A stretch of 64,000 nucleotides of DNA from Haloplanus sp. CK5-1 (GCF_037201915.1 NZ_CP147505.1:2914001-2978000), one strand, 5' to 3'; positions 4,358 to 21,399 are shown, counted from the stretch's first letter. Translations and numbers: made by a program. Notes: generated by a model not told the origin, from the letters alone.

Positions 4358-5622
4358 TGGTCCAACACGTCCGCCTGTCCGAGTGCGATTCTGAGCCGTT
4401 GCCACGTCTCCGGGGAGTGCCAGCCCCAGCCGTGTTTCTCGACGGCGTCGCCGCCGGCGAAGCGGTCGAGCGCTTGCTCCAGTTTGTACTGCTCGGCCGC
4501 CGGCGCGTCGTCACCACGACCGTCGAGACACTCGACGGCCGACTCGGGGTCGACCGTCGCGTCGGTCCACCCGCCCATCGTCCCCTGGAGGAAGCTCCGA
4601 AGCGCGGCCGGGCGGTCACGGAGCGTCTCGCGACGGACGACGAAGGCGGGACCGGGGACCGGGAAGTGGTCGGCCACCAACACCGAGTCGACGTCGTGGC
4701 CCTCCGACTCGAGTTCCAGCGGATCGGTGAACACGCCGGTCGCCACGTCGGCGTCCCCGTCGAGGAGGGCCGTCCGCTCCTCGCCTTTCGCCGGGACGAC
4801 GGTCACGTCGTCGACGACGCCGGCCTGCGAGAGGAAGAGACGCCCGAGCGCGCCGGTCTCCGAGCCCTGGGGCATCGCGACCCGACGACCGCGGACGTCC
4901 TCGACGCTGCGGAGCGGGCCGCCGAACGCCGATCGGGTGGTGTAGAGGACGACCATCGCGCGCTGGTAGTACAGCGACAGAGGCACCAGGTCGTGGCCGG
5001 CGGCGTGCCCGCGGAGGAGCGTGGCCGCGCCGGTGAGACCGACGTCGACGTCGCCGTCGGTCACGGCCGACAGAGCCGCACGGGACCCACGACAGCCGGT
5101 GAACGTCACGTCGACGCCGTGGTCGGCGTACGTCGACGCGAACAGGGGAGCGTGGAGGCCGTTGGGATTCCAGTTGAGGCCCACCTCGAGGGAGTCGGCG
5201 TCGACGGTCGACCCCGACGGGTCGACGTCGACGTCGTCGCCGAGCGTCGCGGCGACGGTCGCCGCCCGTTCGAGCAGTGCCTCGGCGTGGAAGCGCCTGA
5301 CGCGAGCGAGCGTCCGGTCGCGGTCGGCGTCGGCACGCCACCCCTTCGGCGGGCGACCGGGGGCCTCGCTGTCGACGGTCGTCTCCACGACGAGGCCGAG
5401 GTCGGTGAGCGTCGACAGCACGTCCGAGACGCGCCCCCGTCCCAAGTCGACGCCGACGCGAACGGCGAGACGGGAAGCGACGTCGCCGGCGAAGCGGTCG
5501 GAGTCCTCGCGCCCGACCAGATAGGCGAGAACGCGTGCTGCCTCGCGGTCGAGTCCCGTGGCGAACGCCTCGACGGTCCGTTCGTCCTCGTCGCCGAGGA
5601 CCGGGAACTCCCTCACTTGCAC
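4354..5622 (-). CDS. HTH regulator fused to NMT1/THI5-type substrate-binding domain
   Basis: A 422-residue fusion and first gene of the minus-strand ABC operon. Residues about 10-95 form a TrmB/ArsR-like winged helix (LDREAARVLAYLVG, then VSDVLSTLTDLGLVVET). After a helical linker, residues about 145-422 are a substrate-binding domain opening GLNWNPNGLHAPLFAS and closing with EKHGWGWHSPETW, clearly homologous to the secreted protein at 913-2034. There is no signal peptide, so it is cytoplasmic. I infer a one-component sensor in which the transported ligand, or its intracellular product, is bound by the SBP domain to control transcription. The TATA box TTTTATATAC at 5645-5654 is 27 bp from the ATG, indicating a leaderless mRNA. 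It lacks element A. Confidence 0.8.
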   Translation of the reverse strand: MQVREFPVLGDEDERTVEAFATGLDREAARVLAYLVGREDSDRFAGDVASRLAVRVGVDLGRGRVSDVLSTLTDLGLVVETTVDSEAPGRPPKGWRADADRDRTLARVRRFHAEALLERAATVAATLGDDVDVDPSGSTVDADSLEVGLNWNPNGLHAPLFASTYADHGVDVTFTGCRGSRAALSAVTDGDVDVGLTGAATLLRGHAAGHDLVPLSLYYQRAMVVLYTTRSAFGGPLRSVEDVRGRRVAMPQGSETGALGRLFLSQAGVVDDVTVVPAKGEERTALLDGDADVATGVFTDPLELESEGHDVDSVLVADHFPVPGPAFVVRRETLRDRPAALRSFLQGTMGGWTDATVDPESAVECLDGRGDDAPAAEQYKLEQALDRFAGGDAVEKHGWGWHSPETWQRLRIALGQADVLDQ

Positions 5623-6375: not shown

Positions 6376-7444
6376 GAGGGTGTCATAGAACAGTTCGCAT
6401 ACCAAAGAGCAGGGTGAACGCTGAGGTGGAATGCGTTCAGCGACCCTGCAAGATGATCCTTCGGTAGAATCGTTCTTCAATGCCGTGGAAACGGAGACGT
6501 TGGCGTTGTTCGAGCACCTCTCCTTCGAGTTTCTTGAAGGGTTCGACGTGTTCGCCCCGGCGGAGACGGGGCGAACACGAGATCTTGAGCCGCCCGAGAT
6601 GATGCGTGGCTTTCTCCATTGCTATTACAAGAACATCTACGGTATCCGTCCGGTTGCACGAGAACTGAACAACACCGTTGTCTGGCTCAGCTGTAGCTTC
6701 GATCGACCGCCGTCGAGAGACGCGGTCGATCGATTCCTCACTGATCTTGAGCACGTTGTTGACCGGGTCTTCGACCATCTCGTCGAGCAGGCCGCCTTGC
6801 GGGGCCTGCTCGACTTGACGTATTCTATCGATTCAACCGACGTGAGAGCGATGCCCGCCGATCCAGACGCATCGAAGTGCTATGATCCAACCGATGACGA
6901 GTACTACTACGGCTACGGCTGCACGATCGTCTCAACCGGGCAAAAGATCCCGATTGCAGCCGAGTTCACCGAGAGCAAACAAGCACCAGAAGAGACGGCG
7001 ATGCGCGTCACGCGTGACGCGCTCGCCGTCGGGAAACCGATGTGGATGCTTGGAGACAGTGCCTACGACACGCTCGACTGGCACGACCACCTGCTGGCCG
7101 CAGGGGTCGTGCCAGTCGCTCCGTACAATCCACGAAACACCGACGACCCGAAAGATATCGAGTACAGGGTAGAAGACCGCATTGAAAAACACAGCAACGA
7201 CGTTCAGCTGAAGCAATCAACGCTAGACGAGACGTACAACCGCCGGAGTGGCGTCGAACGAACCAACGAATCAGTCAAGGGCTGCGGCCTCGGGCGAACG
7301 CACGCCCGAGGCCGCGTCCATGCACGAGCGCAGGTGTTCCTCGCGTTGTGTCTGCGCCTCGTCGTCGCAATCACCAACTACGAACGCGGAGACAATCCGG
7401 GAAGCACAATCATCACGGTGTGAGAAGAGTTCTATGACACCCTC
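6376..7444 (+). mobile_element. Insertion sequence, 1069 bp, IS4/IS5-like
   Basis: Bounded by 16-bp perfect terminal inverted repeats: GAGGGTGTCATAGAAC at 6376-6391 and its complement at 7429-7444. Both ends are flanked by the identical 9-bp duplication TCATATTTA, so this is a complete and probably recent insertion. It carries a single transposase gene. It sits between the halocyanin gene and the dehydrogenase operon, ending about 24 bp before the palindromic operator at 7468. Confidence 0.95.
6431..7423 (+). CDS. DDE transposase of the IS element
   Basis: A 330-residue intact transposase. The candidate catalytic triad is Asp in SIDSTDVR, Asp in LGDSAYDT and Glu in SGVERTNESVKG, in an RNase H fold with YYYGYGCTIV in between. 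The type matches the IS4/IS5 group of haloarchaeal elements; I cannot assign the exact subgroup. The frame is uninterrupted and fills the element between the inverted repeats, so it is likely active in cis. Confidence 0.9.
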   Translation: MRSATLQDDPSVESFFNAVETETLALFEHLSFEFLEGFDVFAPAETGRTRDLEPPEMMRGFLHCYYKNIYGIRPVARELNNTVVWLSCSFDRPPSRDAVDRFLTDLEHVVDRVFDHLVEQAALRGLLDLTYSIDSTDVRAMPADPDASKCYDPTDDEYYYGYGCTIVSTGQKIPIAAEFTESKQAPEETAMRVTRDALAVGKPMWMLGDSAYDTLDWHDHLLAAGVVPVAPYNPRNTDDPKDIEYRVEDRIEKHSNDVQLKQSTLDETYNRRSGVERTNESVKGCGLGRTHARGRVHARAQVFLALCLRLVVAITNYERGDNPGSTIITV

Positions 7445-7515: not shown

Positions 7516-8448
7516 ATGGAGTGGTATGGCATGTCGCAATATGTAAATGACGGAATGCCCGAGATCGACCAAGAGGATCGACGGCAGTTCCTCAAGGTCG
7601 TCGGGTTGACCGGCGCAGTGGCAGCAGGTAGTGAGTTCACCCTGAGCGATCTCAGGGGCGAAGTAGAAGGCGAAGCGGCGGGGGAACTCGCCGCGATGGG
7701 CGAGGCCATTCGCGAGGACCTTACCGGCGAACTCAGCGCCGGCCTCCTCGGGAACGAACTCGCCGCCCTCGAGGGACAGATCGAGCGCCTGCCCGAACTG
7801 CGGGCGATGGGCGTCCCCGCCGAGGACAGCACGGAGTATCAACAGCTCGCCGAGCCCGGGTGGGCCATCCACGAGCATCTCGTCGAAGTCGGCTTCTTCG
7901 AGAGTGCCGAGGAGCACCTGCCGGAGTTCACCCCCGAGCACATCGGGGCCACGGCACGCGAGTTCATCAACACGGGCGTGCTCGCGAGCGCGCTCGGCGA
8001 ACTCGGCTACAGCGAAGAGGAACTGACCTCGACGGTCGTCAACGTCGTCAACAACAAGGAACGCCTGGCCATGTGGGTGCCCACGAAGAACATCCCGGCC
8101 GGCGTCGAAGGGTTCGATCCCGGGAACGTCGCCCCGCTCCACCAGCGAGCGGCCGCCGGCGTCCTCCTGTGGACCGACTACCTCGACACGTACCTCTGGC
8201 AGAACGAGGTGCTCCTGACCGAGACGATCCTCGACAACAACTACGGCGACCTCAAGCAGATGTACGCCGGCCTGCACCTACTGGCCAGCGCTGCCGAGGA
8301 CCTCGCCGGCGCTCAGGAGCTCTCCGACGCCCAGCTCACCGCCGCCCTCTCCGCGGGTGCGGCGATGATGATCGTCGGACAGGAGGACCTGACGAACGAC
8401 GTGATGCGCATCACGGACGAAATGCGCGCTCCGTCTGCTCTGAGGTGA
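7516..8448 (+). CDS. Tat-signal protein, partner of the PQQ dehydrogenase
   Basis: A 310-residue protein I do not recognise as a named family. Residues about 20-45 carry a Tat-like signal (EDRRQFLKVVGLTGAVAAG). The rest is largely alpha-helical, rich in Ala, Glu and Leu, with aromatic patches (TKNIPAGVEGFD, LLWTDYLDTYLWQNE). It precedes the dehydrogenase by 6 bp and is surely co-transcribed. Because the dehydrogenase lacks an export signal, I infer that this protein carries it across the membrane by Tat co-export and may remain as a small subunit. The start at 7516 fits the TATA distance; an internal ATG at 7531 is an alternative. Confidence 0.6.
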   Translation: MEWYGMSQYVNDGMPEIDQEDRRQFLKVVGLTGAVAAGSEFTLSDLRGEVEGEAAGELAAMGEAIREDLTGELSAGLLGNELAALEGQIERLPELRAMGVPAEDSTEYQQLAEPGWAIHEHLVEVGFFESAEEHLPEFTPEHIGATAREFINTGVLASALGELGYSEEELTSTVVNVVNNKERLAMWVPTKNIPAGVEGFDPGNVAPLHQRAAAGVLLWTDYLDTYLWQNEVLLTETILDNNYGDLKQMYAGLHLLASAAEDLAGAQELSDAQLTAALSAGAAMMIVGQEDLTNDVMRITDEMRAPSALR

Positions 8449-8454
8449 TAACGC

Positions 8455-10179
8455 ATGGCTAGTATTCACGAACACGACGAAGCGGTAAAAGCGGCACAGA
8501 ACATCGAGATGGTGGAGGTCGAGGACGGGTACACGCTGACGAACCTGCCCGACGAATCCATCACCCAGCAGTTCGACATCGACCAGATCCCCCAGCGTGA
8601 CGTCACGCAGGAAGATCTGCACGCCTCCGCGAAGGAGGACCCGACGTCCTGGCTGATGTACGGTGGCGGCTATCAACAACAGCGATACACCTCCGCCGAC
8701 GTCATCACGCCCGAGAACGTCGACGGCCTCGAACTCGAGTATCTGGTACAGAGCGGTGTCTCCTCCAGCATGGAGGGCGTACCGATCGTCGTGCCCGGCG
8801 ACCCGCCGGTCATGTACCAGACGAACGGCCCGAACCACGCCAAAGCGATCAACGCCCGCACGGGCGAGACGCTCTGGAGTTACACGTACGCTAACCCGCA
8901 GGGACTGCTTCTCTGCTGTGACGCCAACAACCGTGGGTTCGCCGTCTACGGCGACAAGGTCTACATGACCACCCTCGACTCCGGGATCGTGGCGCTCAAC
9001 CGCTACACCGGAGAAGAGGAGTGGTACACCTCGACCGGCGACCACGAGATCGGCTACTCCGCCACCTGGGCACCGATCGTCTACGACGGTCAGGTCATCA
9101 CCGGCTCCGCCGGTGGCGAGTACGGCGTCAGCGGCTTCGTCGCCGCGCTCGACCCCGAGAGTGGCGACGAGATGTGGAAGACGAACACCACGCCTTCCGA
9201 CGAGTGGGCCGGCGACTCCCACGAACACGGTGCGGGGACGGTGTGGATGACGCCGACGCTGGACCCCGACAGTGGGATGATCCACGCGCCGGTCGGCAAC
9301 CCCGGTCCGGACTTCGACGGCACGGTCCGTCCCGGCCCGAACCGATTCACCATCGGCACGCTGACCCTCGACGCCAACGACGGCTCCATCGACTGGCACT
9401 ACGGCGAGAGCCCCCACGACGTGTGGGACTACGACTCCTCGGCGACCAAGATCCGTGTCAACGACATGGAGATGGACGGCGAGTCGCGCGACGTCGTCCT
9501 CAGCCCGGGCAAGACGGCCTGGGTGTACACGATGGACGCCAACGACGGCCAGCTGCTCGAACGGTCCGAAGAGACGACCCAGCACATCAACATGTGGAAG
9601 ATGGTCCCGCACACGGACGAGGACCGTCGGGTCGCCTTCGTTCCGGGCGCACACGGTGGCAACGACTGGCAGCCGCCGTCGTACAGCCAAGAGACCGGCC
9701 TGATGTACATGAACCAGAACAACGCGCCTCACGAGATCTTCTGGGAAGAGGCGCAGTACGAGGCCGGCCAGACCTACTGGGGCGGCGGGCTCAACGACTG
9801 GCCCGACGTCGACGCGCCGGACAACTGGAACGGCAACCTCAGCGCCGTCGTCGCAGTCGACCCGTCCACCGGCGAGCGCGTCTGGCGTGACTGGATCTCC
9901 CAGGAGACGACGAGCGACTACCTCTGGGGCGGCTCCATCACGACCGCGACCGGCCTGATGTTCACCGGCACGCAGAACGGGAACATCATCGCCTACGACG
10001 GCGAGAACGGCGACCGACTCTGGCAGTTCCAGCTCGGCGCGCCGATCTGCTCGTCGCTGTCCAGCTGGTACGACCCCGGCGAGGGCAAGCAGTACGTCGC
10101 GGTCCAGGTCGGTGGCTCCGGCTGGCTCCACGGCGGTCGCCGTGGCTCCACCGTCGCCGTCTTCGGCCTCAGCGAGTAG
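8455..10179 (+). CDS. PQQ-dependent alcohol dehydrogenase, lanthanide (XoxF-like) type
   Basis: A 574-residue eight-bladed quinoprotein related to methanol and ethanol dehydrogenases. The adjacent-cysteine pair (LLCCDANN, Cys152-153) that packs on PQQ is present, as are repeated propeller Trp motifs. The catalytic region reads SPHDVWDYDSS: Asp325 is the expected base, and Asp327, two residues later, is the extra acidic ligand that marks lanthanide-dependent enzymes (calcium enzymes have Ala or Ser there). No signal peptide is visible; the N-terminus is acidic. It is co-transcribed with the Tat protein at 7516, probably its export partner. Likely electron acceptors are the copper proteins at 5761 and 10301. 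No PQQ synthesis genes lie in the window. The substrate alcohol is unknown. Confidence 0.85.
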   Translation: MASIHEHDEAVKAAQNIEMVEVEDGYTLTNLPDESITQQFDIDQIPQRDVTQEDLHASAKEDPTSWLMYGGGYQQQRYTSADVITPENVDGLELEYLVQSGVSSSMEGVPIVVPGDPPVMYQTNGPNHAKAINARTGETLWSYTYANPQGLLLCCDANNRGFAVYGDKVYMTTLDSGIVALNRYTGEEEWYTSTGDHEIGYSATWAPIVYDGQVITGSAGGEYGVSGFVAALDPESGDEMWKTNTTPSDEWAGDSHEHGAGTVWMTPTLDPDSGMIHAPVGNPGPDFDGTVRPGPNRFTIGTLTLDANDGSIDWHYGESPHDVWDYDSSATKIRVNDMEMDGESRDVVLSPGKTAWVYTMDANDGQLLERSEETTQHINMWKMVPHTDEDRRVAFVPGAHGGNDWQPPSYSQETGLMYMNQNNAPHEIFWEEAQYEAGQTYWGGGLNDWPDVDAPDNWNGNLSAVVAVDPSTGERVWRDWISQETTSDYLWGGSITTATGLMFTGTQNGNIIAYDGENGDRLWQFQLGAPICSSLSSWYDPGEGKQYVAVQVGGSGWLHGGRRGSTVAVFGLSE

Positions 10180-10300: not shown

Positions 10301-10981
10301 ATGGCGACACGAAGAAAATTCCTGATCGGTGCTGCCGCGGCGACAACTGGCTTGGCCGCAGCGGCCGGGTCCGCGAGCGCCCAAGCACAGACGTTCGAGC
10401 TCGAGTTGACCGACGAGGGGTTCGTCGGTCAATCGCCCTCCAGTATCGAAGGCACGACGAACCCGACCCTCGAAGTCGAGGCTGGCAGTCAGTACACCAT
10501 CGAGTACACGGTGGGCTACATCCCGGAACTGCAGGGGCTCCCGGGACGACACAACATGATCGTCCGGACCGAGGACGGCACCCTCCGCCGGACCAACTAC
10601 GTCTTCGAAGAGGGGAACTCTCAGAGTGTCAGTTTCGAGGCGTCGAGCAACCTCACCACGTGGGGCTGTGAGGAACACGCCTACGAGTCCGAAGGCGAGG
10701 TCGAAGCGTCGTGGTCCGACTACCCGGTCGAGGGTGGCGAGTTCAGCGTCTCCGGCGGCGCGACGGCGACGCCCGAGCCGACGGATACGCCCATGAGCGA
10801 CGGCGGCGACGGTGGCGACGGCGGCGACGGCGGCGACGGCGGCGACGGCGGCGACGGCGGCGACGGCGGCGACGGCGAGGAGACCTCCGGCAACGGGCCC
10901 GGCTTCGGCGTCGGTGCGGCACTGACCGCCATCGGTGCCGGCGCGTACGGCGCGCTCCGCCGTGGCGACAGCGACGAGTAG
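10301..10981 (+). CDS. Cupredoxin-like surface protein with PGF-CTERM tail
   Basis: A 226-residue exported protein. The Tat signal is TRRKFLIGAAAATTG with an Ala-X-Ala cleavage region (SASAQA). The mature domain, residues about 30-150, has a beta-rich cupredoxin-like pattern with His in RHNMIV and Cys/His in WGCEEH; a clear axial Met is not seen. A long in-frame Gly-Gly-Asp linker (DNA repeat GGCGACGGC, 10801-10876) leads to GPGFGVGAALTAIGAGAYGA plus an Arg cluster, an archaeosortase PGF-CTERM signal for lipid attachment. A TATA-like TTTTATTTAA lies about 30 bp upstream. It probably accepts electrons from, or scaffolds, the neighbouring PQQ dehydrogenase. Confidence 0.65.
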   Translation: MATRRKFLIGAAAATTGLAAAAGSASAQAQTFELELTDEGFVGQSPSSIEGTTNPTLEVEAGSQYTIEYTVGYIPELQGLPGRHNMIVRTEDGTLRRTNYVFEEGNSQSVSFEASSNLTTWGCEEHAYESEGEVEASWSDYPVEGGEFSVSGGATATPEPTDTPMSDGGDGGDGGDGGDGGDGGDGGDGGDGEETSGNGPGFGVGAALTAIGAGAYGALRRGDSDE

Positions 10982-11809: not shown

Positions 11810-13942
11810 TCAGTCGTCGGCCGGGGTGTCCGCGGAGTCGGCCTCGGCGTCGACCGTGACCTCGATCTCCGCGGCTGCGGCCTTGTACTCTGGGATCTTC
11901 GCACGCTCGTCGAGCACGTCGTTGGTGAGACGGTTCCCGGCGGCGTCGGCGAAGTGGGGCGTCGTCCACACGGTGCCTTCCTTGGTGTCCTCCGTGACCC
12001 GCGCTTCGACCTCGATCTCACCCCGGCGCGACTTGAGCGTCACGTAGTCGCCGTCCTCGATGCCGTAGTGCTCGGCGTCGTTCGGGTGGACGTCGACGAA
12101 GTTCTCCGGTTCGACACGGTTGAGCGTCTCGGAACGACGACTCATCGTTCCCGTGTTGTAGTGTTCGATGATGCGGCCCGTCGTGAGAATCAGCGGGTAC
12201 TCCTCGTCGGGCGTTTCCTTGGGCGGCTGGTGCTTGACGCCCTCGATCTGTCCGAGACCGCTCTCGGTGGTGAAGCCGTCCCCGTAGAGGTAGTCGTCAC
12301 CCTCGTCGCCGGGTTCGTAGCAGGGCCAGTGGATGCCCTCCTCGCCGAGACGGTCGTAGGTCATGCCGTGGAAGATGGGCGCGACCTTCCGGAGTTCCTC
12401 GAACACGTCCTCGGGACCTTCGAAGTCGAACGAGCCGTCGCCGAAGAGACGGTTGCCCACGTCACAGAGGATCTCCAGGTCGTCTTTGGTGTTCGGGTGG
12501 ACCTTCTCGACACCGCGCATCCGCTGGGTTCGGCGGTCCGTGTTGACGACCGTCCCGTCGCGTTCGGCCCACGACGTGGCGGGCAGGATCACGTCGGCGT
12601 ACTCGGCGGTCTCCGTCTTGTAGATGTCCTGCACCACCATGAAGTCGAGTTCCTCGAGACGCTTCTCGACCTGGTTGGTGTCGGGTTCGCTCATCACGGG
12701 ATTCTCGCCCATGATGTAGAGCCCGTAGATCGTGTTACCGATCTCGTGGGAGACCTCGACGTTCGTCAGGCCGGGTTCGGACGGGATCTCGAAGTCCCAC
12801 ACCTCCTCGACGTCCGCGCGGACCTCGGGGTCGGAGACGTCACGGTAGCCCGGGAGGACGTTCGGCATCGCACCAACGTCCGAGGCTCCCTGAACGTTGT
12901 TCTGGCCGCGAAGCGGGTTGACGCCCGTGCCCGGTCGGCCCAGGTTGCCCGTGATCAGCGCGAGGTTGATCTCGTTTTGCACGTTGTCGACGCCACAGGT
13001 GTGCTGGCTCATCCCCATCCCGGTGAAGATGGCCGCGTTGTTCGCCATGGCGTACTTCTCGGCGGCGAGTTCGATATCCTCGAGGGGGACGCCACACTCC
13101 TCGGCCGCGGCTTCCTTGTCGAAGTCCTCGAGGGTCTCTTTCAGGTCCTCGAAACCCTCCGTGCGCTCGGCGACGAACTCCTCGTCGACCCAGTCGTTCT
13201 CCAGAACCGTCTTGAGGACGATGTTGAGCAGAGGAATGTCCGTGCCGGGTTCGAGTTGGAGGTGCATGTGGCGGTCGGTCTCGGTGATCTCGAACGACCG
13301 CGTCGTCTTGTTGGCGTGCGGGTCGACTTGGATGACGGTCGCGCCCTCCAGTACCGCCTGCCGGAAGTACTGACTGTTGGCGATGGGGTGTTGCTCACCG
13401 GGGTTCGCGCCCTGAATCCAGAACACGTCGGCCGCCTCCTCGAGGTCGGCCATGCTGTTGGTCATCGCGCCCTCGCCGAGGCTGTTCTTGAGGGCGTACA
13501 CCGTCGAGGAGTGGCACATCCGTGTGCAGGTGTCGACGCTGTTGGTGCCGTAGCGTCGGGCGAGTTTCTGGATGAGGTAGTTCTCCTCGTTCATCGCCTT
13601 CGAACAGCCGTAGAAGCCCATCCCTTGGGCGGTGTAGTCCTCGCGGATGCGCTCCATGTTTTCGACGATCACGTCGTAGGCCTCGTCCCACGACGCCTCA
13701 CGGAGTTCGCCGTCGTCGTCGCGGATCAGGGGGTCGGTCAGACGGTCCTCGTGGTTGACGGACTGCGTCGCCGCACCGCCCTTGATACAGATGCTCCCCT
13801 CGTTGACCGGCGCGTCACCCCACGGACGGAAGGTGACTTCGCCCTCGTCGTCCTGTGCGATCTGGATGCCACAGCCCACGCCACAGTACGGACAGATCGT
13901 CTTGGTCGGCCCGTCCGATTCGCCGCTTGAGTCGGATGACAT
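11810..13942 (-). CDS. fdhA: Formate dehydrogenase alpha subunit (Mo/W-bis-MGD)
   Basis: A 710-residue molybdopterin oxidoreductase. The N-terminal [4Fe-4S] motif is C17-X2-C20-X3-C24-X27-C52 (ICPYCGVGC, then GSICIKGG). The active-site pair is Cys143-His144 in TRMCHSSTV, where many bacterial formate dehydrogenases have selenocysteine or Cys followed by His. The C-terminal molybdopterin-dinucleotide binding domain (LILTTGRIIEHYNTGTMSRR) is typical of formate dehydrogenases rather than nitrate reductases. No Tat signal is present, so it acts in the cytoplasm and oxidises formate to CO2. No beta or ferredoxin subunit gene is adjacent, so its electron acceptor is unknown. ATG 13942 is the family-typical start. 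Confidence 0.85.
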   Translation of the reverse strand: MSSDSSGESDGPTKTICPYCGVGCGIQIAQDDEGEVTFRPWGDAPVNEGSICIKGGAATQSVNHEDRLTDPLIRDDDGELREASWDEAYDVIVENMERIREDYTAQGMGFYGCSKAMNEENYLIQKLARRYGTNSVDTCTRMCHSSTVYALKNSLGEGAMTNSMADLEEAADVFWIQGANPGEQHPIANSQYFRQAVLEGATVIQVDPHANKTTRSFEITETDRHMHLQLEPGTDIPLLNIVLKTVLENDWVDEEFVAERTEGFEDLKETLEDFDKEAAAEECGVPLEDIELAAEKYAMANNAAIFTGMGMSQHTCGVDNVQNEINLALITGNLGRPGTGVNPLRGQNNVQGASDVGAMPNVLPGYRDVSDPEVRADVEEVWDFEIPSEPGLTNVEVSHEIGNTIYGLYIMGENPVMSEPDTNQVEKRLEELDFMVVQDIYKTETAEYADVILPATSWAERDGTVVNTDRRTQRMRGVEKVHPNTKDDLEILCDVGNRLFGDGSFDFEGPEDVFEELRKVAPIFHGMTYDRLGEEGIHWPCYEPGDEGDDYLYGDGFTTESGLGQIEGVKHQPPKETPDEEYPLILTTGRIIEHYNTGTMSRRSETLNRVEPENFVDVHPNDAEHYGIEDGDYVTLKSRRGEIEVEARVTEDTKEGTVWTTPHFADAAGNRLTNDVLDERAKIPEYKAAAAEIEVTVDAEADSADTPADD

Positions 13943-14071
13943 TATACGTGAAGAAACCGGATGGGAGACTATCAATGTTGTCATCCGGTACCGTGGGAGA
14001 ACCGGACAGTCGGGTGCCGAGCCGTCCATCGAGGCGGAAAGTTCTCCCCGACGGAGGCCGGATGGGTACGT

Positions 14072-14674
14072 ATGACAGCCGGGGACGACACGGCCGACGC
14101 GACGGCGCTCAGCCGGGTGGCCGTCGACGAGTTGAACGAGGCGTACGAACGGGAGGAACCGTTCGACATGGTCGAACGGGAACACGTCGAGACACTCCCC
14201 CCGGCATTCGCGTCCGGCGAGTTCGGCCGACGCGACGCCGAGTGGGTGGTCCAGTGGTACTACCGCCGTCGCCGTCGGGTCGGTGCGATCACAGACGTCG
14301 AGCGACGCACGGCCGAGGAGCGATTTTTGGAGAACGGCTACGACGCGGTCGTCGAAGCGCTCCAAGGGGCCGCGGCGGCGACCGACCTCGACGAGCAGTG
14401 TGATCGGCTGACGGCACTCGTCGGCGTCGACGTCGCCGTCGCGTCGGCGTTTCTGTCGTTCACACACCCGGATCGACGCGTGGCGGTCGGACCGCGGGAG
14501 TGGGACTCCCTCCACGAGGCCGACGAACTGTCCGACCCATATCCCGATTCGGTGACGACCGCCGCTTACGGCCGGTATCTCGACGCCGTCGGCGCCGTCG
14601 CGAGCCGAGTGGGCCGCGACCGCTGGACGGTCTACCGCGCGCTCTGGCAACTCGGCGGCGACGGTTCGAACTAG
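14072..14674 (+). CDS. Conserved haloarchaeal hypothetical protein
   Basis: A 200-residue soluble protein without recognised motifs. It is mostly helical: an N-terminal segment DELNEAYEREEPFDMVEREH, a conserved-looking core EWVVQWYYRRRRRVGAI, and a C-terminal half rich in Ala/Val (VDVAVASAFLSF) ending in YRALWQLGGDG. Starts upstream of 14072 lack plausible coding character. The stop overlaps the stop of the SBP-like gene on the opposite strand (a shared CTAG). No function is proposed. Confidence 0.6.
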   Translation: MTAGDDTADATALSRVAVDELNEAYEREEPFDMVEREHVETLPPAFASGEFGRRDAEWVVQWYYRRRRRVGAITDVERRTAEERFLENGYDAVVEALQGAAAATDLDEQCDRLTALVGVDVAVASAFLSFTHPDRRVAVGPREWDSLHEADELSDPYPDSVTTAAYGRYLDAVGAVASRVGRDRWTVYRALWQLGGDGSN

Positions 14675-15639
14675 CGGCCGATCCGCTCGGCGTAGTTGGC
14701 GATGACCGGATCCGAGTCGTCGACGTACTCGTTGGTCCACACCTCCGCAGGGTCGACCGGCGACTCCAGCAGATCCGTCTCGGCGAGCATCTCATTCAGA
14801 TTCTCCCAGCGGTCCGTGTCGAAGTGTCCCCACCCCGCCTCGCGGACGAACTCCGTGAACTGGAGGTCCTCGGCGGAGGCGAGGAACTTCATGTGCTCGA
14901 CCTCGCGGTTGTGTTCCAACTGGGCGTTGCGGTCGATGAGCGCGTCGACCGCACGCTCGGGATCGTTCGTCGCGGCCTCCCACCCGCGGGCGGTCGCCCG
15001 CAGGAACGCGCGGACGGTCTCGGGGTTCGACTCGGCGAACTCGGGGTTGGTGACGACCGCCATCCCGTAGACGTCGAGGTAGTCCCCGATGAGGAGTTCG
15101 TCGGCCGTCCGGTCGTACTCGCGTTCGAGTTCCTTGCCGTTGGTGACGACACCGACGGCGGCGTCGACGTCGCCGTCGAGCACCAGGTGTTCGACCCGGT
15201 GGTGGGTGTGTTTCTGTACGTCGCGGACTTCCACCTCGTCGCGGATACCTCGATCCTCCAACAACTGGAGCGTGAGGATCCGGGTCTTGGTCGCGGAAGG
15301 CGCGACCGTCCGATCCCGGAGCTGTTCGGGTTCGGTGAACGGTTCGCCGAACGTGTCCCGGAGGCTGTAGATCGTCGCGGGCGTCTTCTGGCTGACGGCG
15401 GCGACGGCCAGCGGATCGAGCCCCTGACTCCGGACCGAGAGGACGGCGCTCCCCCCGGCCAGACCGAGGTCGCTCCGGCCTTTCGCGGTCTGTTCGGCGG
15501 CGAAGGGGGAGCCGTGGCCCTCGACGAACTCCACGTCGAGCCCTTCGTCGTCGTAGAACCCCTCGCGGCGCGCGAGGAAGTACGGTGCCTGGAAGCCGTT
15601 CGGTTCCCAGTTCAACTGGAAAGTGACTGTCTCCGTCAT
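14671..15639 (-). CDS. Cytoplasmic NMT1/THI5-type SBP-fold protein
   Basis: A 322-residue protein beginning directly in the mature SBP fold (MTETVTFQLNWEPNGFQAPY), with no signal peptide or lipobox. It is plainly paralogous to the secreted protein at 913-2034, matching in LNWxPxG, the FLRATARG segment, a GWG motif and a C-terminal VWTNEY. Homologs of this fold without signals can be enzymes: THI5 (pyrimidine synthase), MqnA/MqnD and dihydroxyphthalate decarboxylase. The start codon overlaps the stop of the preceding gene at 15636 (ATGA), so it is co-translated with a second SBP-fold protein. It may be a cytoplasmic binding protein, a sensor or an enzyme; sequence does not decide. Confidence 0.75.
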   Translation of the reverse strand: MTETVTFQLNWEPNGFQAPYFLARREGFYDDEGLDVEFVEGHGSPFAAEQTAKGRSDLGLAGGSAVLSVRSQGLDPLAVAAVSQKTPATIYSLRDTFGEPFTEPEQLRDRTVAPSATKTRILTLQLLEDRGIRDEVEVRDVQKHTHHRVEHLVLDGDVDAAVGVVTNGKELEREYDRTADELLIGDYLDVYGMAVVTNPEFAESNPETVRAFLRATARGWEAATNDPERAVDALIDRNAQLEHNREVEHMKFLASAEDLQFTEFVREAGWGHFDTDRWENLNEMLAETDLLESPVDPAEVWTNEYVDDSDPVIANYAERIGR

Positions 15640-16628
15640 GGATCGATCTCGAAGGTGCCGTCGGGTATCTCTTCCACGCCGAGCGCGTCCGCGCCGGCGA
15701 CCGCTTTCAGGTGGTCGAACAGCCGGTACATTCCGTCTACGCTCTCCTCGTCCCAGTCCCGGACGACCATGTCCCGCCAGCCGTCACGCACCGCACGCAT
15801 TACGTCGGGGTCGTCGTAGGTCATCAGCTTCTGGCTGATCTCCTCCCAAATCTCGTCGTCCTCGACGAGTCGGTCGACCGCGTCGCGGTAGGCATCGGCG
15901 AAGGCCCGCACCGTCCCACGGTTCTCCTCCAGATACGTCCCGCTCGTGAGGAAGGCGGCGATGGGGAGTTTGTTCTCCGTCCCTGAGAGTCGCTGAACCA
16001 GTTCGGAGACCGGCAGGACGTTCTCGTAGGGGCCCGTCTCCGTAATCTCGGGAACGATCTGCCAGAACTGGAAGCCGGCGTCGACCTCGCCGTCGCGGAT
16101 CATCCGCGTGAGTTCGACCTTCGAGCCGGCTTCGACGGGCGTCGCCGTCTCGTCGGGGTCGAAGCTGTGGTACTCTCGACACGCCGCCCGCGTCAAGATC
16201 CAGTTCTTGTCGAGACGGCGGACCACCCCGATGCGCTTGCCAGAGAGGTCCTCCAGCCCGTCGATGTCCGATCCCTCGGGAGCGACCAGTCCACCCACCG
16301 TCCGTCCGTAGGGGTGGAAGGCGACGATGTCCGCCCCCTCGGCGCGCTCGCGGGCGATGGAGATGTAGTCGATGTCGATGAGGTCGGCGTGTCCCTCCTG
16401 CAGTTGTGCCTCGACCGTCTCGATACCGTCCTCCAGTGCGTCCGAGACGAGTTGCACGTCGAGGTGGAAGCCGTGGTCGCGGTCGTAGCCGAACCGCTTG
16501 ATCGTGTAGAGGAGGTAGCGCGGGCTCCCGTTGTGTTCGAAACGTGCCCGCATCACCGGCAGGTCGCCCGGGTCGTCGTGGTACGCGTCGAGGGCGTCCT
16601 GTTGGGCGTCGACGTGGTCCCGGTTCAT
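15636..16628 (-). CDS. Cytoplasmic SBP-fold protein, paralog 1
   Basis: A 330-residue protein lacking any export signal. It begins with a helical prefix (MNRDHVDAQQDALDAYHDDP), then the SBP-like core from about residue 25 (VMRARFEHNGSPRYLLYTIK). Characteristic blocks are HPYGRTVGGLVAP, RRLDKNWILTRAACREYHSF and VRDGWRDMVVRDWDE. It is about two-thirds identical by eye to 16815-17807, so the pair arose by duplication. It is translated downstream of a 39-codon ORF (ATGA overlap) and upstream of another SBP-fold gene (ATGA overlap). By homology it could bind a small amphipathic molecule or catalyse a lyase or decarboxylase-like reaction. Confidence 0.75.
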   Translation of the reverse strand: MNRDHVDAQQDALDAYHDDPGDLPVMRARFEHNGSPRYLLYTIKRFGYDRDHGFHLDVQLVSDALEDGIETVEAQLQEGHADLIDIDYISIARERAEGADIVAFHPYGRTVGGLVAPEGSDIDGLEDLSGKRIGVVRRLDKNWILTRAACREYHSFDPDETATPVEAGSKVELTRMIRDGEVDAGFQFWQIVPEITETGPYENVLPVSELVQRLSGTENKLPIAAFLTSGTYLEENRGTVRAFADAYRDAVDRLVEDDEIWEEISQKLMTYDDPDVMRAVRDGWRDMVVRDWDEESVDGMYRLFDHLKAVAGADALGVEEIPDGTFEIDP

Positions 16629-16744
16629 CGGCTCGTCCGATCGGGTGTGTGTGGCTGTCGTGGCGATTCAGCATCCGTGTCCGCGGAATCACCGGGGGAG
16701 CCGACGGCCCGGCGACGCGACGCGGTCCGCTCGTCGGTCGGCAT
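16625..16744 (-). CDS. Short leader ORF, 39 codons, coupled to SBP-fold operon
   Basis: An ATG at 16744 opens a 39-residue Arg-, Asp- and Ser-rich peptide (MPTDERTASRRRAVG...). Its TGA overlaps the ATG of the gene at 16628. The TATA box at 16769-16774 lies about 27 bp upstream of this ATG, whereas it is about 145 bp from 16628, so a leaderless transcript would begin exactly here. That geometry, rather than protein similarity, is the support. It could be a real small protein or a coupling leader. Confidence 0.45.
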   Translation of the reverse strand: MPTDERTASRRRAVGSPGDSADTDAESPRQPHTPDRTSR

Positions 16745-16768
16745 ACCCGCAGGGTACGACTGGACCCT

Positions 16769-16795
16769 GATAAAATTTCCTTGGAAACGTTTATT
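16769..16795 (-). promoter_or_regulatory. Element B: AATAAACGTTTC plus TATA box
   Basis: On the minus strand AATAAACGTTTC at 16795-16784, then 9 bp, then TTTATC at 16774-16769. The 12-mer is identical to element A and the spacing is the same. No gene diverges from this point, so the element is not a second promoter. Confidence 0.6.
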
Positions 16796-16814
16796 CAGTT
16801 GTAGCCGACCACCG

Positions 16815-17807
16815 TCAGGGGTCGGGATCGAAGGTTCCTTCGGGGATTTCCTCGACACCGAGTGCGTCCGCACCGGCGACCGCTCTCAGGTGGTCGAACA
16901 GCCGGTACATCCCGTCGACGCGCTCCTCGTCCCAGTCCCGGACAACCATATCCCGCCAGCCGTCACGCACCGCACGGATCACCGTTGGATCGTCCTCGTG
17001 CATGAGCGCCTCGCCGATCCGCCCCCAGAGGTCGTCGTCCTCGTGGAGGCGGTCGACCGCGTCCCGGGCTGCGTCGGCGAAGCCCCGCACCGCATCCGGG
17101 TGGTCGTCGAGGTAGGACTCGCCCGTCAGAAACGTCGCGACTGGGAGCTCTCGGTCGGTTCCGGAGAGACGCTGAACCAGATGGGAGACGGATAGCACCT
17201 CCTCGTACGGACCGGTCCGGGTGAGTTCGGGGACGAGCGGCCAGAACTGGAAGCCTGCATCGACCTCGCCGGACCGGATCAGTCGCGTGAGGTCGTCCCG
17301 AGACTCGGCCTTGACGAGAGTCACCGTCTCGTCGGGGTCGAAGCCGTGGTACTCCCGACACGCCGCCCGCGTCAGGATCCAGTTCTTGTCGAGGCGACGG
17401 GTCACGCCGATCCGGTGGCCCGAGAGGTCTTCGAGCCCCGAGATGTCGGCATCCTCGTGGGCGACCAGTCCGCCGACCGTCCGTCCGTACGGGTGGACGG
17501 CGACGATGTCCGCCCCCTCGGCGCGCTCCCGGGCGACAGAGATGAAGTCGGTATCGACGAGGTCGGTGTCGCCGCCGTTCAGACGGGATCGGATCGTCTC
17601 CATCCCGCTTTCGAGTTCGTCGGAGACGAGGCGAACGTCGAGGTGGACGCCGTGGTCGTGGTCGTAGCCGAACCGCTTGATTGCGTACAGCAGGTACCGT
17701 GGACTCCCGTTGTGCTCGAAGCGCGCCCGAATCACCGGCAGGTCACCCGGGTCGTCGTGGTGTTCGTCGAAGGCGGCCTGTTGGGCGTCGATGTGGCGTC
17801 GGCTCAT
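16815..17807 (-). CDS. Cytoplasmic SBP-fold protein, paralog 2
   Basis: A 330-residue protein, near duplicate in length and sequence of 15636-16628 (MSRRHIDAQQAAFDEHHDDP at the start; HPYGRTVGGLVAH, RRLDKNWILTRAACREYHGF and VRDGWRDMVVRDWDE inside). No signal peptide. It lies 58 bp downstream of 17866-18762 on the same strand without an obvious promoter in between, so the two probably form an operon. The differences between the two copies are spread along the protein rather than clustered, which argues against recent gene conversion and for retained separate roles. Confidence 0.75.
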   Translation of the reverse strand: MSRRHIDAQQAAFDEHHDDPGDLPVIRARFEHNGSPRYLLYAIKRFGYDHDHGVHLDVRLVSDELESGMETIRSRLNGGDTDLVDTDFISVARERAEGADIVAVHPYGRTVGGLVAHEDADISGLEDLSGHRIGVTRRLDKNWILTRAACREYHGFDPDETVTLVKAESRDDLTRLIRSGEVDAGFQFWPLVPELTRTGPYEEVLSVSHLVQRLSGTDRELPVATFLTGESYLDDHPDAVRGFADAARDAVDRLHEDDDLWGRIGEALMHEDDPTVIRAVRDGWRDMVVRDWDEERVDGMYRLFDHLRAVAGADALGVEEIPEGTFDPDP

Positions 17808-17865
17808 GGCGGGTGGGGTGGGGAGTCGAACCGGAACGGACCGCCGGCGGCGACGTCCGTCACGA

Positions 17866-18762
17866 TCACCGGATCGGGGAGACGATGGCGTCGATGTCGG
17901 CGTCGGCGTCGATCAACTGTCGCTGTTTCATCCAATCGAGGTGGTAGTCGAGGTCCTCGCGGTCGGCCAGTTCGGGCACCTCGTACTCGGGCACGTCGAT
18001 GGCGGCACGGACGGCCTCGGTGTCGACGTCCTCGAAGAGGTCGGGGGCCACCTCCTCGTCCTTCCAGAGCATGTCGAGATACTGGTCGCGGTACGCCGAC
18101 GGGTCGGCATTGATCTCCTCGACCGCCCGCCGGTAGGCGCGCATGAACGCGTCGAGGGTCTCACCCTCCAGTCCCTCGGCACCCACGACGCCCATGTGGT
18201 TCTCGAACTCCAGTACTTTCTCGAAGCCGAGGTGCTCGGCGAGGGTGATGTGTGGATCCAGCAGCGAGACGGCGTCGACATCGCCGTCACGGAGAGCGCG
18301 GAGCCGATCGGTCGGCATCCCGTGGCCCTCGATCACGACGTCGTCTTCGTCCATATGCTCTTCGAGCGCCCGGATCGCGGTGTACTCCTGGCCCGTCCGC
18401 GTGTTGACGCCGACGGGCGTGTTCGCCAGATCCGCCGGCTCCTCGATATCCGAGTCGGGGCGGACGAACACCGCGTAGGGCTGGTCGGCGAACGTCCCCT
18501 TCGCGACGATGCGGCCGTCGTCGAAGTCCCAAGTCCGTTTCAGGCTCTCCCACTTGCAGATCGGGTAGAGGTCCACGTCGTTGTCGCCGGTCAACGTCTC
18601 GTCGGCCGGGATGTACTTGTTCGTCACGCAGGTCCGGTCGCGCTCGATCAACTCGACGTCGAGGCCCTCGTCGGCGAAGTAACCACGGTCGACCGCCACG
18701 CGCTGGGGCAACATGAACGAGAAGGGCAGGTGGAACACCCTGATCGTCTCGTCTTCGGACAT
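17866..18762 (-). CDS. Cytoplasmic SBP-fold protein, divergent member
   Basis: A 298-residue protein without export signal, beginning MSEDETIRVFHLPFSFMLPQ and continuing RGYFADEGLDVELIERDRTC, a NMT1/THI5-type opening. Other blocks are LANTPVGVNTRTGQEYTA, DAVSLLDPHITLAEHLGF and a helical C-terminus with DYHLDWMKQRQLID. It is more distant from the other three SBP-fold proteins here. It is first in its operon; its TATA box is 27 bp upstream (leaderless) and element C lies 9 bp further. Divergent from the cupin gene at 18849. Function unknown; binding, sensing or enzyme roles are all open. Confidence 0.72.
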   Translation of the reverse strand: MSEDETIRVFHLPFSFMLPQRVAVDRGYFADEGLDVELIERDRTCVTNKYIPADETLTGDNDVDLYPICKWESLKRTWDFDDGRIVAKGTFADQPYAVFVRPDSDIEEPADLANTPVGVNTRTGQEYTAIRALEEHMDEDDVVIEGHGMPTDRLRALRDGDVDAVSLLDPHITLAEHLGFEKVLEFENHMGVVGAEGLEGETLDAFMRAYRRAVEEINADPSAYRDQYLDMLWKDEEVAPDLFEDVDTEAVRAAIDVPEYEVPELADREDLDYHLDWMKQRQLIDADADIDAIVSPIR

Positions 18763-18848: not shown

Positions 18849-19190
18849 ATGAGGCGGATCAACGACGAGGCGACCGACGGAGCGGAGGTTGCTGACGGCG
18901 TGTTCCTCGCCGATCTCGCGTCCGGGGAGCGGGCGTCGATGAAGCACTGGCGGGTCGAACCGGGGTCGACGCTCCCCGTTCACCGTCACGACAACGAACA
19001 GATCGGCTACATGATCCAGGGCACCCTGACGGCGATCACCGAAGACGAGGAGATCACGCTCCGGCCCGGCGACTCCTACCTGTTCGAGGGCGACGAGTTA
19101 CACGGAGCGGAGAACCGCGGCGACGAACCCGCGGTCGGCATCGGCGTCCTCTCGCCGCCGCGATCCGACCCCGACTGGAAGCAGTCGTGA
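18849..19190 (+). CDS. Cupin-domain protein
   Basis: A 113-residue single cupin barrel. Metal ligands can be placed in motif 1, PVHRHDNEQIGYMIQGTL (His, His, Glu), and motif 2, PGDSYLFEGDELHGAEN (His). The size and sequence are typical of small mononuclear-metal cupins that bind or modify small molecules; the reaction cannot be read. It is divergent from the SBP-fold gene at 18762, shares that promoter region, and converges with the aldehyde ferredoxin oxidoreductase gene with no gap. Shared regulation with the SBP-fold genes is likely. Confidence 0.8.
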   Translation: MRRINDEATDGAEVADGVFLADLASGERASMKHWRVEPGSTLPVHRHDNEQIGYMIQGTLTAITEDEEITLRPGDSYLFEGDELHGAENRGDEPAVGIGVLSPPRSDPDWKQS

Positions 19191-20882
19191 TCACTCGCGG
19201 CCGAGGTGTCGATCACACCGTGCCCGCGGCACTGTCCCGTCGGCGTTCCAGCCCCGCAGATCGTAGTACGTATCGAGCGCCGCCGACAGGCCGTCGAGCG
19301 CGAAGGGGAGGTCGTCGTCGTCGTTCCAGTCCCGGCCGCGACGGTTGTTGAAGCCACGCTCCAGATCCACCACCCGCGAGCCCAGCGCGTCCAGTTCCCT
19401 CTCCGACGCGTCGAGAAGCGTCGCCAAGCGGTCGTCGGTGAGCGTCCCCCGCGAGAACCGACAGGCGATGGCCGAGTCCAAAGCGGCGTTTCGGTTCTCG
19501 GACGCGACCAGCCGTTCGGCCTTGCCGTCGAGGCCGTCTGCGGGGAGCGCCGCCTCGCGGTCGACCAGCGGGTACTCGTAGACGTACATGCCGCCGTAGA
19601 GGTGGTCCGCGCCGCGGTTCGAGGTAGCGAAGGCGAGCCCCTGTCCCGCCAACGCCCGGCCGTCGTGGGCGGCGAATTCCATTCCCTTCATCGTCCAGTC
19701 GGGGACGCCGAGGTCGTCGTGACAGCGGGCGATCCCCTCGGCGAGTAGGTCGCCGACCCCCTGGCGGTAGGCGATCTTCTCGATCAGGTCGTGGACCAGA
19801 TCGGCGTCGCCGAAGGCGTCCTCGGCGGCGAGATACGCCGAGACGACGTCGCCACACGAGATGGTGTCGAGGCCGAGTTCGTCACAGCGGTCGTTGGCGT
19901 GCATCACCGCCGGCAGGTCGTCGACGCCGGCGTTGCTCCCGAAGGCCATGATCGTCTCGAACTCCGGCCCCTCCGTCTCGATGCTCCGATCCTCGTCGAC
20001 CGTGGGGAGTTTGCAGGCGAAAGCACACCGCGAGCAGGTGCCGCGGCCGGTCTTCTTCTCGGCCACCCGCTCGCCGCCCACCGCGTCGGCGCCCTCGAAC
20101 GACAGTTCGGAGAAGTACCGCGTCGGCAACGCCCCGACTTCGCTGGCGAAGGTCGTGAGACTCGCCGTCCCTTGGCGCTTCATGACGTGGTCGCTCTCGG
20201 CGGCCTCGCGGTGGACCGCGCTCGCCACCTCGCCCGCCGCGGCGTCGAGGTCCGGCCCGGGGTCGGCGTCGCCGTCGAACGTGATCGCCTTCACGCCCTT
20301 GGATCCCAGCACCGCCCCCAGACCGCCGCGGGCGAACGCCCGGTGGTCGGTCGTCACGACCGCGGCGAAGCGGACGGCGTTCTCCCCGGCCGGGCCGACG
20401 CAGGCGACGTGGTCGCCGTCGAGGCCGTGGGCGTCCCGGGCCCACTGGGTCACGGTCGACACCTCCGCGCCGGCCAACTGCGGGACGGCCTCGAACTCGA
20501 CGCCGTCCTCGCGGACGTGGACGGCGACGAGCTCGTCGCTCTCGCCGGCAACCTCGACGGCGGCGTAGCCCGCGCCGACGAAGTTGCCGGGCAGGAACCC
20601 CCCGGCGTTCGACGACAGCAGGCCGTCGGTCAGCGGCGAGAGACCCGTACACGAGAGCCGACCGGCGAAACTCGTCGTCGCCGTCTGGAGGGGTCCGGCT
20701 GCGAAGTAGAGGCGGTTCTCGGGGGCGAGCGGGTCGGCGTCGAACGGGACGCGCTCGTAGGCCAGTCGCGTCCCGAGGCCGCGGCCGCCGACGAACCGCT
20801 CGCGGGCGGCGTCGACGTCGTCGGTTCGCCACGTTCGCTCGCCCACGTCGACCGAGAGCAGGGGACCCCGGGCGTGTCGCAT
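19191..20882 (-). CDS. Aldehyde ferredoxin oxidoreductase family protein
   Basis: A 563-residue tungsten (or molybdenum) bis-molybdopterin enzyme of the AOR family. The N-terminal domain starts LLSVDVGERTWRTDD and continues FVGGRGLGTRLAYE, FAAGPL and SFAGRLSCTGLSPLTDG. The [4Fe-4S] cysteines are in GTCSRCAFACKLP with a later Cys in DTISCGDV. It likely oxidises aldehydes to acids with ferredoxin as acceptor in the cytoplasm. The length is slightly below the roughly 600 of archaeal AORs. ATG 20882 matches the family start; a longer reading to 20993 is unlikely. Confidence 0.85.
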   Translation of the reverse strand: MRHARGPLLSVDVGERTWRTDDVDAARERFVGGRGLGTRLAYERVPFDADPLAPENRLYFAAGPLQTATTSFAGRLSCTGLSPLTDGLLSSNAGGFLPGNFVGAGYAAVEVAGESDELVAVHVREDGVEFEAVPQLAGAEVSTVTQWARDAHGLDGDHVACVGPAGENAVRFAAVVTTDHRAFARGGLGAVLGSKGVKAITFDGDADPGPDLDAAAGEVASAVHREAAESDHVMKRQGTASLTTFASEVGALPTRYFSELSFEGADAVGGERVAEKKTGRGTCSRCAFACKLPTVDEDRSIETEGPEFETIMAFGSNAGVDDLPAVMHANDRCDELGLDTISCGDVVSAYLAAEDAFGDADLVHDLIEKIAYRQGVGDLLAEGIARCHDDLGVPDWTMKGMEFAAHDGRALAGQGLAFATSNRGADHLYGGMYVYEYPLVDREAALPADGLDGKAERLVASENRNAALDSAIACRFSRGTLTDDRLATLLDASERELDALGSRVVDLERGFNNRRGRDWNDDDDLPFALDGLSAALDTYYDLRGWNADGTVPRARCDRHLGRE

Positions 20883-20967
20883 CGTCCGGCGAAGGGGACG
20901 GGACGCATATAGTTCCGCGGGTGCGCGGCGGGAAAACCTATATCGGTCGGGGCTCGCGAGTGGGCGC

Positions 20968-21399
20968 ATGGACGCCGTCGACCACATCAACATCGACGTC
21001 GACGACCTCGGCGAAGCACACGAGTTCTACCGCGACGTCCTCGACCTGCACCTGTTGCGCCCACCCGAGGACTTCCAGGGCGCACACGCCATGTTCGAGA
21101 CCGAGGCCGGGACCGTCGTCACGCTCATGGAGACGGGACAAGCCGAGAAGTGGGACGAACGCGGACTCGATCACCCACTCGACAAGGCCCACCTCGCCTT
21201 CGAGACCGACCGCGACACGTACCAGTCGCTGATGGACGACCTCGACGACCAGTTCCCGAAGCAGGGGCCGTACGACTGGGGCGAGTTCGAGGGGTTCTAC
21301 TTCCTCGATCCGTCCGGCAACCTACTCGAAATCGTCACCTACGACCCCGCACCGGCGAACCGGCCACGACGGCTCTTGGACCACGACGACGTCGAGTAA
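20968..21399 (+). CDS. VOC (glyoxalase/dioxygenase) family protein
   Basis: A 143-residue protein of two beta-alpha-beta-beta-beta modules. The first module, MDAVDHINIDVDDLGEAHEF, offers a metal His, and the second ends EGFYFLDPSGNLLEIVTYDP with the conserved Glu. Such proteins bind a divalent metal and act as glyoxalases, isomerases or dioxygenases; specificity is not predictable. It stands alone, divergent from the AOR gene, with a TATA-like TATATC about 28 bp upstream. Confidence 0.8.
   Translation: MDAVDHINIDVDDLGEAHEFYRDVLDLHLLRPPEDFQGAHAMFETEAGTVVTLMETGQAEKWDERGLDHPLDKAHLAFETDRDTYQSLMDDLDDQFPKQGPYDWGEFEGFYFLDPSGNLLEIVTYDPAPANRPRRLLDHDDVE

Follow-up and report, generated by a model that had tools for sequence, protein, structure and literature searches.

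A cytoplasmic haloarchaeal gene module of three substrate-binding-protein-fold families, a VOC protein and a cupin, with a possible role in an undescribed pathway

Our analysis describes a cytoplasmic module of some haloarchaea, which combines three kinds of protein with the fold of substrate-binding proteins (SBPs), encoded by genes D, B (with its paralogue C) and A, with a VOC/glyoxalase-superfamily protein and a cupin. We consider the chances close to even that the SBP-fold members of this module are enzymes of an undescribed pathway. The block was studied in a window of 64,000 nucleotides (the whole stretch of DNA that was analyzed) from Haloplanus sp. CK5-1, where its genes are laid out as follows:

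17866-18762, minus strand: gene D, 298 residues, a signal-less NMT1-family SBP-fold protein and the first gene of the block
16815-17807, minus strand: gene C, 330 residues, a paralogue of B that keeps the invariant residues of the B family
15636-16628, minus strand: gene B, 330 residues, lacks a signal and is related to the PQQ-binding protein PqqT
14671-15639, minus strand: gene A, 322 residues, a signal-less ThiY/THI5-like SBP-fold protein with an LNWEPN motif
18849-19190, plus strand: cupin, 113 residues, divergent from D, with conserved H45, H47, Q51 and H85 as a likely metal site
20968-21399, plus strand: VOC/glyoxalase-superfamily protein, 143 residues, with conserved H6, E55, H75 and E121 as a likely metal site

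A co-inherited set of genes

The first-pass annotation of this DNA had reported four SBP-fold proteins in two operons with ATGA overlaps. All four open reading frames are present on the minus strand, where they are transcribed in the order D, C, B, A, and each scores above the gathering threshold of the Pfam NMT1 family. They amount to only three kinds of protein, because C, at 75% identity, is a paralogue of B; it was encountered in Haloplanus alone, in the window and at two further loci (L093 and L094). The Haloplanus C sequences form a clade apart from Haloplanus B (support 100/99), which contradicts a very recent duplication; the duplication therefore predates these species, or C diverged fast. 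The operon description fared less well, as the block in the window holds a single ATGA overlap, between the stop of B and the start of A (15636-15639), and gaps of 58 and 186 bases separate D from C and C from B. In some relatives, such as locus L077, both joints do overlap.

Conservation of the gene set across haloarchaea, one of the checks put forward with the first-pass annotation, was clearly borne out. A 195-genome sample of the order contains 19 more genomes with orthologues of D (62-72% identity, one of them a fragment), and separate searches with D, B, A and the VOC protein recovered an identical 20 of the 195 genomes with no partial sets. These genomes fall in eight of 67 genera, with a patchy distribution inside genera, and since they are related to one another they do not represent 20 independent events. 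The fetched neighborhoods of the D orthologues all contain D, B and A in that order, the divergent cupin and the VOC gene, and there are no transporter genes within this unit. The fixed gene order and the cupin recur at 35 of 35 loci from named organisms, the exception being Halolamina, which has D and B without A. At a few of the 35 the VOC gene falls outside the fetched stretch; even at distances of 3-5 kb it is an obligate partner. Hosts include Haloplanus, Natrinema, Natrialba, Natronococcus, Halalkalicoccus and Halomarina among others, and copies are carried on megaplasmids in Haloterrigena turkmenica (pHTUR02), Halococcus, Natrinema and Halomarina. The cupin belongs to a family broader than the module, in which its closest members are mostly module copies.

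Fold, location and invariant residues of the SBP-fold proteins

Against PF09084 (NMT1; gathering score 20.5 bits) the products of A, B, C and D score 111, 42, 46 and 47 bits, and AlphaFold2 models of D (pLDDT 90.6) and A (pLDDT 78.8, a model of moderate confidence) were confirmed by Foldseek to have the SBP fold, as the earlier reading had anticipated; score and fold together place these proteins in the NMT1/THI5-like SBP-fold family. Sequence comparison indicates that the three differ in origin, B being related to PqqT, A being ThiY/THI5-like and D belonging to a wider signal-less family. The SsuA/TauA-type aliphatic sulfonate binding proteins have the same fold and Pfam family, but they are exported and encoded in ABC operons, and A-D score far under their curated cut-offs. 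MqnA and MqnD of the futalosine pathway have the same general fold and are cytoplasmic, although their structural similarity is below that of THI5 and ThiY; an MqnA/MqnD identity was rejected for A-D, no such family appearing among their Pfam and NCBIfam matches at E values up to 0.1.

The absence of export signals from A-D was upheld. Peak hydropathy over 15 residues within the first 60 is 0.79, 0.47, 0.08 and 0.86 for A, B, C and D, compared with 1.55 for an exported paralogue encoded at 913-2034 in the same window, and none of the four has a Sec, Tat or lipoprotein signal. Missed signal peptides or wrong starts are excluded because the starts of the orthologues coincide, and just ahead of them relatives have either an in-frame stop within a few codons, as several do, or sequence that resembles non-coding DNA.

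The product of A is nearest to ThiY, a thiamin-binding SBP and THI5. Its best Foldseek matches are the yeast thiamin-pyrimidine synthase THI5 (4h6d, 4esx) and ThiY (3ix1), which have in common with it the fold and the LNWxP first loop, and THI5 is cytoplasmic, as is the signal-less A. The active-site residues of THI5, Lys62 and His66 (PMC10848271), are however not kept: they align by HMMER with A61/G62 and V66, and the invariant His cluster of A lies elsewhere, which rules against A as a THI5-type HMP-P synthase. In a comparison with ten exported and twelve HTH-fused paralogues, N10, W11, S44, D180, Y191, W270 and W278 are common to all three groups, while H42, K118, the inserted H146-H147-R148, H151 and N167 are invariants of A only, held by 34-35 of 35 A sequences. 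The model puts H42, K118, H146-R148 and N167 at or next to the N-termini of helices that follow strands, the usual ligand-contact positions of the SBP fold, and secondary structure and alignment suggest that the His cluster sits at such cleft-contact turns. Conservation of A exceeds that of the exported binder U in each of 36 genome pairs; an identity comparison with HTH-fused SBPs was left out, being contaminated by cross-matches to A.

The nearest solved structure to B is PqqT (E 2e-29), a periplasmic protein of Methylobacterium extorquens AM1 (9b1u, 9b1v and 9ooz, of which 9b1v contains PQQ and Gd3+). B and C align with it over nearly their whole length (whole-domain E values of 2e-29 and 6e-31), and PqqT and B are both associated with PQQ dehydrogenases; but unlike PqqT, B lacks both a signal peptide and an ABC partner, and neither B nor C shows periplasmic export. 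The N-terminus of B is hydrophilic where its secreted relatives carry a signal peptide. B keeps D140-K141-x-W143, P106-Y107, R147 and F188-W189 of the PqqT family, the last pair corresponding to Y161-W162 of PqqT; it replaces the NWE, DWLW and GAPP segments, which do not vary in the secreted PqqT-like group, and has invariants of its own (E31-H32-N33, R37, D85, R137-R138 and K170). In a comparison of PQQ contacts K141, W143 and F188-W189 are kept in B and other segments are changed; to place PqqT K142 (PMC12828617), an offset of 27 residues has to be assumed. All eight bacterial relatives of B that were inspected adjoin genes for a PQQ dehydrogenase or other quinoprotein together with ABC genes, and all eight have a signal peptide or a comparable N-terminal extension. 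The arrangement that the first-pass annotation had set against an enzymatic role, single signal-bearing genes next to ABC genes, is seen in the bacterial relatives of B and in no haloarchaeal orthologue.

Across archaeal and bacterial relatives D has the invariants C69, W71, N120, Y127 and R153, with C69 and W71 unchanged in 33 sequences down to 25% identity. The C-x-W motif is modeled at a strand/helix junction (65-71), a probable cleft-contact position judging by secondary structure and alignment. The larger signal-less family of D extends to actinobacteria, cyanobacteria, alphaproteobacteria and other archaea, where its members often stand beside a complete ABC system with its own signal-bearing SBP and sometimes beside a second D-like gene; such ABC operons would also suit sensors or accessory proteins. 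The desulfinase DszB (2de2), a signal-less SBP-fold enzyme, is a fold match to D and A. Its catalytic Cys27 lies in another segment than the invariant Cys69 of D, and its profile aligns with D only at 97-121 (E 0.55), so D was rejected as a DszB; A has no cysteine at all and was rejected likewise. None of D, B and A has the known catalytic residues of any described SBP-fold enzyme. A and B retain the binding scaffold and add invariant polar residues that are absent from exported relatives; such residues could also mean a changed ligand.

Quinoproteins, importers and a candidate sensor near the module

Further genes of the window bear on the function of the block, and among the points absent from the first-pass annotation are the relationship of B to PqqT and the presence nearby of a PQQ-dependent alcohol dehydrogenase (PQQ-ADH):

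19191-20993, minus strand: aldehyde ferredoxin oxidoreductase (AOR), accessory, with its true start probably near 20882
8455-10179, plus strand: PQQ-ADH, accessory, with no signal peptide and a lanthanide-type W-D-Y-D motif
7516-8448, plus strand: partner protein directly upstream of PQQ-ADH, with an RRQFLK Tat-like N-terminus
913-2034, plus strand: exported SBP with a Tat/lipobox signal, a paralogue of A (42%)
3590-4405: ABC ATPase that goes with the SBP at 913-2034
4354-5622, minus strand: HTH-SBP fusion, a winged-helix-like N-terminus (weak MarR match) joined to an A-like SBP domain

The AOR and the cupin had both been taken as neighbors suited to a catabolic or cofactor-synthesis pathway. 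The cupin is beside D throughout; AOR adjoins 20 of 57 module loci and, being common but not universal, is accessory; elsewhere an ALDH or XDH-family gene is found instead.

PQQ-ADH of the same subfamily, with at least 55% identity, occurs in 16 of the 20 module genomes and in two of the 175 others (Fisher p ~6e-18, uncorrected for relatedness), and any PQQ dehydrogenase in 18 of 20 against 15 of 175. In one genus (g29) many genomes without the module have a PQQ dehydrogenase of the 50% type alone, and the two genomes with the closer type (G102 and G136) carry the module. A strict dependence of the module on PQQ-ADH is ruled out by one genome (G051; one contig, 99% complete), which has the module and no PQQ dehydrogenase. 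The W-D-Y-D motif, by the established reading of its second Asp the lanthanide-type arrangement of PedH and XoxF, is present in 32 of 32 aligned PQQ-ADH copies, and a signal peptide in none; the Tat-like N-terminus of the partner protein is absent in some clades. PqqE was found above its cut-off in none of 24 genomes. PqqC had no match in 35 genomes, a result that is uninformative alone, as no control genome matched either.

The descent of B from the PqqT family and the nearby PQQ-ADH open a second reading, the strongest rival, in which cytoplasmic B and C would bind PQQ or a precursor and load the signal-less PQQ-ADH, with A and D binding or processing related compounds; the dehydrogenase would be folded inside the cell, to act there or to leave by Tat together with the partner encoded at 7516. 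The PQQ-bound structure of B's closest solved relative, the quinoprotein neighbors of the bacterial relatives, the skewed distribution of PQQ-ADH, its want of signals and the lack of a PqqE above cut-off are all consistent with this. The genome that has the module and no PQQ dehydrogenase speaks against it, as do the 15 genomes with a PQQ dehydrogenase and no module and the fact that B keeps only a minority of the residues that never vary among secreted PqqT-like proteins, and it leaves the obligate VOC partner unexplained; we consider it somewhat unlikely. A mixed answer, in which B binds a quinone and A and D catalyze, is possible.

Less likely again is that the SBP-fold proteins are cytoplasmic ligand sensors or transporter accessories, binding an imported solute and regulating the importer or transcription. 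The HTH-SBP protein is a clear candidate for an SBP-fold sensor and probably a ligand-sensing regulator, and the bacterial relatives of D adjoin complete ABC systems. D, B and A, however, lack an output domain, most module copies have no ABC importer nearby (the SBP at 913-2034 lies about 10 kb from the block, and only some copies have it in their vicinity), and one-to-one co-inheritance with a VOC protein would be a strange pattern for three sensors. That A-D are ordinary import binding proteins exported by an unrecognized route is highly improbable: although Pfam and NCBI annotate such proteins as ABC substrate-binding proteins, they have no hydrophobic N-terminus, stops lie just upstream in relatives, no permease or ATPase belongs to the conserved unit (ABC genes are beside few of about 45 loci), and the window does encode a secreted paralogue, whose Tat/lipobox signal is normal.

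A candidate pathway of SBP-fold enzymes

We prefer enzymes to binders on the strength of signal loss, co-inheritance with the VOC protein, new polar residues and slower evolution than the exported binder, each of them circumstantial. The pathway of SBP-fold enzymes suggested in the first-pass annotation is retained in part: the cytoplasmic location, the conserved set, the lack of a permease of its own and the co-inherited VOC protein agree with it, but membership of THI5 or MqnA/MqnD does not stand. We infer catalysis by D, B and A, the class of substrate and the order of steps. In our model the three SBP-fold members would have evolved into enzymes from import binding proteins, their two-lobed cleft still holding a small compound, probably heteroaromatic or quinone-like, while the chemistry would fall to the new invariant polar residues of the cleft loops, which are His/Lys/Asn for A, Glu-His-Asn/Arg/Asp for B and Cys-x-Trp for D. 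The module may be coupled to the oxidation of alcohol to aldehyde to acid by PQQ-ADH and AOR, ALDH or XDH-type enzymes, and in Haloplanus the substrate may enter through the ABC importer close by, whose SBP is encoded at 913-2034, and be sensed by the HTH-SBP protein. It is a more tentative proposition that a quinone- or pyrimidine-like compound is processed in three separate steps by the three SBP-fold enzymes, acting beside the VOC protein and the cupin, with independent recruitment of two of the three from import proteins of the ThiY-like and PqqT-like kinds. In its strongest form this proposition would describe, if true, a PqqABCDE-independent route that makes or modifies the quinone cofactor of archaeal lanthanide-type alcohol dehydrogenases.

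The SBP-fold enzymes described so far are few, and each catalyzes a single step. A search of the literature on cytoplasmic SBP-fold pathways and haloarchaeal PQQ enzymes found nothing on the D-B-A cluster, and the NMT1-motif (xanthine) riboswitch was set aside as a purine lead, the published work concerning proteobacterial genes. An obligate set of three signal-less SBP-fold proteins therefore appears to be new, while single members of the kind are already known. If they are enzymes, this all-or-none set of three would be a natural case of a binding protein turning into an enzyme, for which it would help that the same genome encodes a secreted and a probable sensor paralogue of A and two likely enzyme partners, and the module gives defined residues for mutation. 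It links cytoplasmic SBP-fold families to a lanthanide-type quinoprotein in archaea with no recognizable PqqE, and it is a reminder that the common label 'ABC transporter substrate-binding protein' also covers cytoplasmic families whose role differs.

Relatives of the signal-less SBP-fold proteins

The signal-less family with an invariant C-x-W motif, to which protein D of the module belongs, is widespread and uncharacterised; at the bacterial loci L128-L171 its SBP-fold members are encoded within ABC operons that already contain a gene for a signal-bearing SBP, and some of these loci carry the family gene in two copies. The module copy of Halolamina salifodinae (L112) comprises D, B, the cupin and the VOC protein, with A, another signal-less SBP-fold protein, absent beside B. 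As an experiment of nature, this locus could show whether the module can do without A or has it encoded elsewhere. A domain related to A is also found in a fusion protein of the window:

4354-5622, winged-helix-like N-terminus fused to an A-related SBP domain; adjoins the ABC ATPase gene

This protein is a candidate one-piece regulator, and its orthologues, annotated only as substrate-binding proteins, are found repeatedly near the module.

The PQQ alcohol dehydrogenase and its neighbours

6431-7423, transposase-like ORF, judged by eye, between the ABC importer and candidate regulator genes and the PQQ dehydrogenase genes
7516-8448, partner protein 5' of the PQQ alcohol dehydrogenase; Tat-like N-terminus (RRQFLK)
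8455-10179, lanthanide-type PQQ alcohol dehydrogenase; W-D-Y-D motif, no signal peptide
10301-10981, Tat-signal protein adjoining the dehydrogenase; Gly-Asp-rich linker, hydrophobic C-terminal tail

The Tat-like start of the partner recurs in L066-L068 and is absent from other clades. The dehydrogenase may be exported by Tat hitch-hiking, or may be an archaeal quinoprotein that stays cytoplasmic. A Pfam search with the 10301-10981 protein gave no match; to judge from the spacing of its H...C...H residues, it may be an electron acceptor of the cupredoxin type.

On haloarchaeal plasmids (L076, L077 and L078), genes for a CDC48-like AAA-family ATPase, a ferredoxin and a Na/Ca antiporter repeatedly surround the PQQ dehydrogenase, and could be its partners for maturation and cation supply.

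A formate dehydrogenase gene and its recurrent neighbour

11810-13942, stand-alone formate dehydrogenase alpha subunit
13961-14674, adjoining gene without a Pfam match

These two genes are kept together in L093, L094, L100, L114 and L115.
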